From positions 1-64,000 of the forward strand of contig JAFWOY010000015.1 in the NCBI GenBank assembly GCA_017509755.1: a stretch of 64,000 nucleotides of DNA, given 5' to 3'. The notes below the pieces were generated by a model that saw nothing but the letters and a program-made list of their open reading frames with translations, was not told the origin of the DNA and searched no databases. The position numbers were made by a program, and so were the translations under genes. Positions 3,407-5,704 of this stretch are shown in pieces; position 1 is the stretch's first letter, and the number at the start of each line of letters is the position of its first letter. The stretch comes from Bacteroidales bacterium. Its GTDB lineage: Bacteria > Bacteroidota > Bacteroidia > Bacteroidales > UBA932.

Positions 3407-4429
3407 ATGAAACTAGATACACTCAATAAGTATTTCAACGGAACCGCTTCGGATGACGAGCGGCGGGAAGTGCTCGCCTGGGTGGAAGAAAGTCCTGCAA
3501 ACAAGGAGGAATTCCAACAGCGCGAAGCCGATTTTCTCTTCGCTTCGATGCCTGACACGGAAGCTTCCCAGGCGGCTACGACCCACATTCTCAACGTGAT
3601 TGCGCCCAAACGGCGGAAGATCCGGATCCTGAATGCCGTGGCCAGCGCAGCCGCTGTTTTCGTGGTCGGCGCCTTCCTCTGGGTCCTGCACGACAACAGC
3701 CGCCTCAACAGCCAGGTCGCCAGCCTGACGGCCCAGAACGAGAAACTCATCGCCATCCCGGAACTCGTCCAGGGCGAATCCGTCCTCAACTACAAGGTCA
3801 ATCCCGGCGTAAAGGGCAGAATAACCCTGCCCGACGGCAGCGAGGTTATCCTCAACAGCGCCAGCACGCTCCGCACGCCGGCCCGCTTCGAGAACGGCAA
3901 GCGCGTGGTGGAACTGGAAGGCGAAGGCTATTTCAAAGTCGAATCGAATCCCGACTGGCCGATGTACGTCCGCACGAGCCGGGGCGTCACCGTCAAGGTC
4001 ACCGGTACGGAATTCAATCTATCCACTTATAGCGACGATGCGGCCCTCAAACTGACGCTTGTCCGCGGCAAGGTCTCGCTGCTCGATGAAAAGTCCGAGA
4101 CAGAAGTCGTTGTCCGGGAGAAGGAAGAAGTGGTCGTCGGCGCAAGGGCCCAGCTGGAGAAACCCACCCGCAAAACGGCCGACATGAAGCTCAACACCTC
4201 CTGGAAAGACGGCTACCTGGTGTTCGACAACACGCCCATCCGCGAGGTCATCAAGAAAATGGAACGCTGGTACGGCGTCGATATCACCGTGGCCGACGCC
4301 CGCGTGATGAACAACACCTTCACCGCCAGTTTCCGCAGCGAATCGCTCCAGCAGGTACTAACACTGCTGAGCATCACCTGCGACATCCACTCAAAAATAA
4401 AGAGCCCCACCGAAGTGGAGCTCTGGTAG
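3407..4429 (+). CDS. FecR family anti-sigma/sensor protein (system A)
   Basis: The 340-residue protein has a cytoplasmic N-terminal segment (MKLDTLNKYFNGTASDDERREVLAW), one membrane helix at about residues 72-90 (ILNAVASAAAVFVVGAFLWVL), a periplasmic FecR beta domain with LPDGSEVILNSASTL and GEGYFKVE, and a C-terminal domain (YLVFDNTPIREVIKKMERWYGV). In the FecIRA paradigm it relays substrate occupancy from the STN domain of the TonB-linked transporter to the sigma factor. Its last ten codons (ending in PTEVELW) also form the left copy of a 31-bp repeat duplicated beyond the neighbouring ATPase gene. Confidence 0.9.
   Translation: MKLDTLNKYFNGTASDDERREVLAWVEESPANKEEFQQREADFLFASMPDTEASQAATTHILNVIAPKRRKIRILNAVASAAAVFVVGAFLWVLHDNSRLNSQVASLTAQNEKLIAIPELVQGESVLNYKVNPGVKGRITLPDGSEVILNSASTLRTPARFENGKRVVELEGEGYFKVESNPDWPMYVRTSRGVTVKVTGTEFNLSTYSDDAALKLTLVRGKVSLLDEKSETEVVVREKEEVVVGARAQLEKPTRKTADMKLNTSWKDGYLVFDNTPIREVIKKMERWYGVDITVADARVMNNTFTASFRSESLQQVLTLLSITCDIHSKIKSPTEVELW
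4399..4429. repeat. 31-bp direct repeat, left copy (3' end of fecR)
   Basis: The block from AAAGAGCCCC to CTCTGGTAG is identical to 5674-5704. It contains a 10-bp hairpin with one mismatch. Read on the minus strand, the loop is TTCG closed by C-G. It includes the fecR stop codon. Confidence 0.9.
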
Positions 4430-4464
4430 AAATCTTTGCAACCTGCTGCAGCACCCCGATGACA

Positions 4465-4508
4465 ACACAAATTTGTGTTACACAAGTTTGTGTTACACAA
4501 ATTTGTGT
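4465..4508. promoter_or_regulatory. Three tandem 14-bp palindromes, period 15 bp
   Basis: ACACAAATTTGTGT at 4465-4478, ACACAAGTTTGTGT at 4480-4493 and ACACAAATTTGTGT at 4495-4508. The outer copies are perfect palindromes and the middle one differs at its centre. The third copy covers the TTTG at 4502-4505 that sits at -33 spacing to the ATPase promoter. An operator array for a dimeric repressor is the simplest reading. Confidence 0.75.
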
Positions 4509-4533
4509 ATTTGCAATAAAAAACTTACCTTCG
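4502..4533 (+). promoter_or_regulatory. Putative promoter of the ATPase gene
   Basis: TTTG at 4502-4505, 20 nt, then TACCTTCG at 4526-4533. This is close to the Bacteroidota TTTG-N19-21-TAnnTTTG consensus, with one mismatch in the -7 box. The start codon is 16 nt downstream. Confidence 0.5.
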
Positions 4534-4549
4534 TACAAAGAATAAAGCT

Positions 4550-5671
4550 ATGGAACAACCTTTTGTGTTCGGCGTACCTGCTGAAGATCCGCATTTCATT
4601 GGAAGAGAGAAGGAAATGGCCCGCCTGGAGACCAATTTCAAATATGGCGTAAATACCGTTTTGATGTCCCCCAGACGCTGGGGAAAGACATCCTTGGTAA
4701 ACAGAGCCGTACGGTCGATCAAGGAAAAAGGTCGCATCGTGGTGCAGATGGACATCTTTGCCTGCCGAAGCGAATATGACTTTTACAATACTTTCGCTGC
4801 AGCCGTTCTCCAGCAAACCGCATCCAGAATAGATGAATGGAAGAACTTAGCGAAAGGTTTCATCGAAAGACTGACACCGAAAATTTCCTTGTCGCCGGAT
4901 CCGGGAACAACCTATTCCGTCTCGCTGGGGATTACGCCGAAGACGCATACTCCGGAAGAAATACTCTCACTTCCTGAAATAATTGCCGAACGGAAAAACT
5001 CTGAACTGATCATCTGTATCGATGAATTCCAGCAGGTGGGTGAATTTCCTGATTCTTTATCTGTCCAGAAACGACTCCGGAGTATATGGCAGCATCAAAA
5101 GCACGTATCCTACTGTCTGTATGGCAGCAAACTGCATATGATGACGCGTTTGTTCCAGAGAAAAAGCTATCCTTTCTACCGTTTTGGCGAAGTGCTGAAC
5201 TTGGAGCCGATTCCTCTTCAGACATGGATCCCATATATTCAAGGACGCTTCATGGCATTTGGCAAAAAGATTGAGGAGAAATATATAAAGCAAATCTGTG
5301 ACATAGTCTCGTATCAAGCCTCCTACGTTCAGCAGTTGTCTTACTCCGTGCTCCTGTTTTCGGAAAAAGAAGCAACGGATGAATCCTTTATACAAGCCGT
5401 AGATGACCTGCTAGCACAAAATAACAATGTATTTATTGAGCAGACCCAGTCTTTGACAACGTACCAGCTGAATTTCCTTCGTGCCGTTCTTGACGGGGTT
5501 TCAAGCCGTTTTGGCGAAGCAGCGATCCGGGAACAATACAATCTGGGCTCTCCTTCCAATATCACACGTCTCAAGACATCCATGACTGAAAAAGAACTGG
5601 TAGAATTGACAGAAAAGGGGATTGTTATTGGAGATCCGGTCTTGAAGCTCTGGCTTGACAAGATATTATAG
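4550..5671 (+). CDS. AAA-type ATPase (ATPase_2/MNS-like P-loop NTPase)
   Basis: The 373-residue protein begins EQPFVFGVPAEDPHFIGREKEM, the N-terminal box typical of this family. It has a P-loop variant SPRRWGKTS (residues 40-48), a Walker B strand LIICIDEF (about 153-160) and a C-terminal winged-helix-like region (LGSPSNITRLKTSMTEKELVELTEKGIV). Such ATPases occur as expanded, apparently mobile paralogues in Bacteroidota and archaea; their cellular role is poorly defined. The gene is poorer in G+C than both neighbours, is preceded by three operator-like palindromes and is bounded by 31-bp direct repeats, which together suggest acquisition. No toxin or nuclease domain is visible. Confidence 0.85.
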   Translation: MEQPFVFGVPAEDPHFIGREKEMARLETNFKYGVNTVLMSPRRWGKTSLVNRAVRSIKEKGRIVVQMDIFACRSEYDFYNTFAAAVLQQTASRIDEWKNLAKGFIERLTPKISLSPDPGTTYSVSLGITPKTHTPEEILSLPEIIAERKNSELIICIDEFQQVGEFPDSLSVQKRLRSIWQHQKHVSYCLYGSKLHMMTRLFQRKSYPFYRFGEVLNLEPIPLQTWIPYIQGRFMAFGKKIEEKYIKQICDIVSYQASYVQQLSYSVLLFSEKEATDESFIQAVDDLLAQNNNVFIEQTQSLTTYQLNFLRAVLDGVSSRFGEAAIREQYNLGSPSNITRLKTSMTEKELVELTEKGIVIGDPVLKLWLDKIL

Positions 5672-5673
5672 AA

Positions 5674-5704
5674 AAAGAGCCCCACCGAAGTGGAGCTCTG
5701 GTAG
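5674..5704 (-). terminator. 31-bp repeat, right copy; terminator of the tlpA operon
   Basis: Read on the minus strand this is GAGCTCCAC-TTCG-GTGGGGCTC followed directly by a run of T. It is a classic intrinsic terminator with a stable UUCG tetraloop, 7 nt after the stop of the convergent tlpA gene at 5712. The sequence is identical to 4399-4429. Confidence 0.8.

Follow-up and report, generated by a model that had tools for sequence, protein, structure and literature searches.

Self-repressing genes with tandem operators are known from several systems, for example plasmid rep genes with iterons and toxin-antitoxin promoters. Among proteins, the closest described relatives of the ATPase discussed here are PABY2304 (PDB identifier 2qen), SSO1545 (PDB identifier 2fna) and the Pfam family ATPase_2 (PF01637), whose fold it has in common over nearly its whole length, at a sequence identity to the two proteins of about 15%. 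No matched operator array for ATPases of the PABY2304/SSO1545 type was found in the literature that could be searched. The Cdc6/Orc1 proteins, seen on origin DNA (PDB identifiers 2qby and 2v1u), are alike in their AAA+ domain and winged helix and bind origin DNA. The locus examined here lies in a 64,000-nucleotide stretch of a Bacteroidales bacterium (assembly GCA_017509755.1, contig JAFWOY010000015.1, positions 1-64,000, forward strand), hereafter the window. It belongs to a family of which an ATPase (E <= 1e-60) is present in 60 of the 295 genomes sampled across Bacteroidales, and plasmid-annotated relatives are named 'ATP-binding protein' and nothing more. Our literature search met with no description of such arrays, which is weak evidence of absence given its thin coverage of subscription journals.

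A palindrome array upstream of an ATPase gene

Directly upstream of the ATPase gene, the window carries three tandem 14-bp palindromes (ACACAANNTTGTGT) that start at 4465, 4480 and 4495, i.e., with start-to-start spacings of 15 and 15 bp, the second differing by one base change. The features of the array, promoter and gene are as follows.

4465..4478, no strand: palindrome 1, ACACAAATTTGTGT (sequence inspection)
4480..4493, no strand: palindrome 2, ACACAAGTTTGTGT (sequence inspection)
4495..4508, no strand: palindrome 3, ACACAAATTTGTGT (sequence inspection)
4502..4505, forward strand: -33 box TTTG, within palindrome 3 (sequence, family-wide promoter overlap)
4526..4533, forward strand: -7 box TACCTTCG, 20 bp past the -33 box (sequence, family-wide promoter comparison)
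4550..5671, forward strand: ATPase gene, encoding a 373-aa AAA-type protein, ATPase_2-like, with a predicted C-terminal winged helix (open reading frame, Pfam, structure model, fold search)
5552..5590, forward strand: predicted recognition helix, codons 335-347, including R340 (structure model, covariation)

Both the 15-bp phasing of three palindromes and the coverage of the -33 TTTG by the last of them, as proposed in the initial annotation, are thus confirmed at these positions. The -7 box is one base from the consensus TAnnTTTG, and relatives mostly have TATCTTTG or TATATTTG. A search of the 64-kb window with the palindrome pattern, allowing up to two mismatches, returned six strand matches against 0.34 expected, all of them at the three sites, and the whole 2.54-Mb genome holds neither an exact match elsewhere nor a second such array. 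The array may also be parsed as odd-centred palindromes (TTGTGTTACACAA), in which case it consists of half-sites of alternating direction every 7-8 bp. An RNA element or a tRNA was considered as an identity and rejected, since Rfam and tRNA searches of the window gave no match.

The protein has a Walker A-like RRxGKTS and a Walker B-like CIDEFQQ motif, both invariant, and its AlphaFold2 model (mean pLDDT 86) shows a C-terminal winged helix with a recognition helix at residues 335-347. It matches Pfam ATPase_2 with 31.5 bits (E 1.9e-07), just under the gathering score of 33.2, and is therefore termed ATPase_2-like and not filed as a member. In a fold search with the whole model, the archaeal ATPases 2qen (Z 24.2) and 2fna (Z 22.7) are the best matches, followed by ORC/Cdc6 proteins at a lower score (Z about 18), to which the likeness is one of fold only, and, lower still, by NLR, CED-4 and TnsC ATPases. 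Together, the motifs, the model and the Z scores identify a P-loop ATPase of the 2qen/2fna fold with a C-terminal winged helix. Searches with the ATPase found no match in NCBIfam or among PDB sequences, no relative in viral contigs, and in PHROGs a single weak match to a family of unknown function. A known anti-phage defence system was also rejected as an identity, since the best PADLOC match (E 0.0019, 15 bits) is weak and to candidate families.

Conservation and position of the array

A scan of genome contigs yielded 20 loci encoding relatives, and whole-genome searches in the genus and the order extended the sample to 122 distinct members. Nearly all relatives of the 20-locus set with readable upstream DNA carry CACAANNTTGTG two or three times, spaced by 15 bp, directly before a TATCTTTG-like box, and those that bear the array sit in differing gene neighbourhoods. 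When the 130 bp upstream of each member were scored for the best repeat at lags of 9 to 25, with a cut-off of at least 18 of 24 matches, the strongest repeat had a lag of 15 in 63 of the 122 members and of 14 in a further 11; 6 of 610 shuffles reached the cut-off, all of them at lags other than 14 and 15, as did just three downstream regions. Among the 85 members whose identity to the window protein is 33% or more, the best lag is exactly 15 for 79, and one of the six others (L026) has 66 bp of upstream DNA only, in which a partial array is visible. The initial annotation had named beforehand the absence of the palindromes upstream of homologous ATPase genes as the finding that would speak against it; the array is nearly universal, so this objection falls away. 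The lag-14 members are related more distantly (22-30% identity), and in a distant L003-like clade the upstream period scan found no array. Several L003-like members sit after what looks like one shared small conserved gene. Upstream of position 786 in L151, a distant relative on a Vibrio plasmid, CTAAATACTAA-type repeats recur at about 14 bp, which suggests that the period rule may extend beyond Bacteroidota.

The array is also largely constant in its relation to the core promoter, as it overlaps the region from -33 to +1 of the gene's own promoter in 69 of 74 members. Within these 69, it lies on the -33 side in 48, covers the -7 box in 18, and is at or downstream of the -7 box in three. Occlusion, and hence repression, would fit best with the 21 members in which the array is on or past the -7 box. 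The -33 side position in 48 of the 74 members, where contact with RNA polymerase is possible, could instead suggest that the ATPase activates its own gene by binding the array; this reading is at odds with the same 21 members, and we regard it as highly improbable.

The association of array and ATPase appears to be specific. A TTATTA-type array (TTATTAGTAATAA) occurs at nine loci in 295 genomes, eight of them directly upstream of a family ATPase, and the reversed-sequence control found none. The window-type two-copy pattern was found at seven places in six other genomes among 392, two at ATPases and five solo. A few arrays of this type lack a family ATPase within about 1.5 kb. Thus, the association is strong, not absolute, and the arrays without an ATPase suggest that the sites may have another role too. 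Solo arrays at L064, L066, L068, L069 and L157 have no family ATPase in the surrounding DNA examined, and one at L065, around position 1501, lies between 368-bp direct repeats that are 98% identical.

Array sequences and the predicted recognition helix

The sequence of the half-sites differs by subfamily and includes TTGTGT, TTATTA, TTGTTA, GGTTA, GGTAT and TTGTTTC, among others. The window genome encodes a second close relative (43% identical), whose array is not the same, and arrays likewise differ within other genomes that hold more than one member (e.g., G062, G085, G086, G261 and G240). Arrays recur with their ATPase clades across other hosts; the array follows the ATPase and not the host. 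These observations bear on a host-encoded repressor that would recognize the array and silence an incoming cassette, with the ATPase as a passenger. The location of the array over the promoter is that of a silencing site, and the few arrays without an ATPase would be accommodated as well. However, the differences among paralogs in one host, the recurrence of the same array with the same ATPase clade elsewhere and the absence of any other such array from the window genome argue against a host regulator, as does the covariation of operators with the ATPase's own helix described below, and we consider this explanation very unlikely.

In partial Mantel tests, operator distance is correlated with recognition-helix distance, N-terminal distance being controlled (partial rank correlation 0.36, permutation maximum 0.13, n=999), a value that shared ancestry can inflate. 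A segment-wise scan of the whole protein gave its top two scores at residues 325-342 and 334-351 (0.32 and 0.30), with the next best at 0.17, and the recognition helix at 335-347 was found independently from the structure model. At residue 340, Arg goes with TTGT in 34 of 39 cases, Ile with TTAT in 11 of 12, and Lys with GGTW/WACC in nearly all, and in the per-column test columns 166, 328, 305 and 135, outside the helix, score about as high as 340. Operators thus covary with the recognition helix of the protein that they accompany, to a degree that common descent may exaggerate.

Based on these sequence comparisons, we hypothesize that the array is probably the ATPase's own operator, to which the ATPase binds so as to repress its own promoter. 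The initial annotation had left the choice between self-binding and a host repressor; self-binding is the part that we retain, as it is well supported by sequence evidence, and the host repressor is the part that paralog arrays, clade-linked arrays and helix covariation disfavor. We infer repression as the sign of control, and any part played by ATP. The recognition helix in the C-terminal winged-helix domain of the ATPase would read the half-site TTGTGT (ACACAA), and several adjacent protomers would occupy six half-sites whose direction alternates every 7-8 bp. Bound protomers would cover the -33 region, and the gene would in this way repress itself; binding may be cooperative and may be switched by ATP or a ligand. 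As operator and gene would travel as one cassette, expression could be controlled wherever it has landed, independently of host regulators.

A mobile cassette and its likeness to known systems

The array and the gene are one mobile, low-GC cassette inserted at the window site. Its boundaries are as follows.

4399..4429, forward strand: upstream copy of a 31-bp direct repeat, the 3' end of a FecR-like gene at 3407-4429 (repeat search, open reading frame)
4430..5673, forward strand: inserted cassette of 1244 bp, 44% GC against 58% in the window (composition, empty-site and junction comparison)
5674..5704, forward strand: the same 31-bp direct repeat, downstream copy (repeat search)

The 31-bp repeat is perfect. 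A sister species within the genus (L169, FecR 89% identical) has a single copy of it, no ATPase and the next gene close by, i.e., an empty site. The ATPase gene of the cassette is under purifying selection. Exact flanking repeats of at least 20 bp were found for 10 of 117 members and for none of 318 control segments. Clean duplications of unrelated sequence measure 31 bp in the window, 40 in L020, 59 in L141, 75 in L116, 119 in L017 and 239 in L103; empty-site support pertains to the window case only, and some of the other flanking repeats may be ordinary repeats. From these clean cases we left out L125, L079 and L088, whose duplications have further copies nearby, and L044, which could be a dispersed repeat and whose sister locus, having no alignment across the junction, was not used as an empty site. 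A transposon with defined ends was rejected, since a comparison of cassette junctions revealed no shared sequence, no terminal sequences were found, and duplications range from 31 to more than 200 bp. In L015, L016 and L034, the ATPase and its array directly follow the apparent end of an integrase-type gene (MKWTGHSDYKAMKPYIDIVD...).

Given the solo array flanked by 368-bp repeats at L065, the array could additionally be a cis-acting site for the movement of one-gene Bacteroidales cassettes that insert with long variable target duplications, an extra role that we think rather unlikely. A further alternative is that the array is mainly an origin or recombination site, with the ATPase as an ORC/Cdc6-like initiator acting on iteron-like repeats and promoter control a side effect. 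The likeness of the fold to Cdc6/Orc1 on origin DNA, the mobility of the cassette with its long duplications and the same solo array could be read in its favor, but the closest folds are those of archaeal ATPases not known to act as initiators, the array keeps close to the core promoter in 69 of the 74 members, and in our searches no member of the close family was found as an independent replicon, the plasmid matches being distant (22-28% identical). We therefore hold an origin or recombination site to be improbable, and favor the array as an operator of the ATPase gene.

A matched operator array provides a handle on the targets and the control of the family's ATPases, and the family offers a natural set of protein-site pairs for deriving a recognition code. 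Judging by the long target duplications, the cassettes would seem to insert by a route that does not resemble that of a standard transposon. The ATPase very probably represents, as judged from sequence, a known principle, self-regulation via tandem operators, within a large and little-studied ATPase family. As in plasmid rep/iteron and toxin-antitoxin systems, repeated sites lie over the gene's own promoter. Unlike in those systems, the presumed regulator is an AAA-type ATPase itself, encoded in a one-gene cassette, and the 14-15 bp period of its sites is kept while their sequence diversifies.
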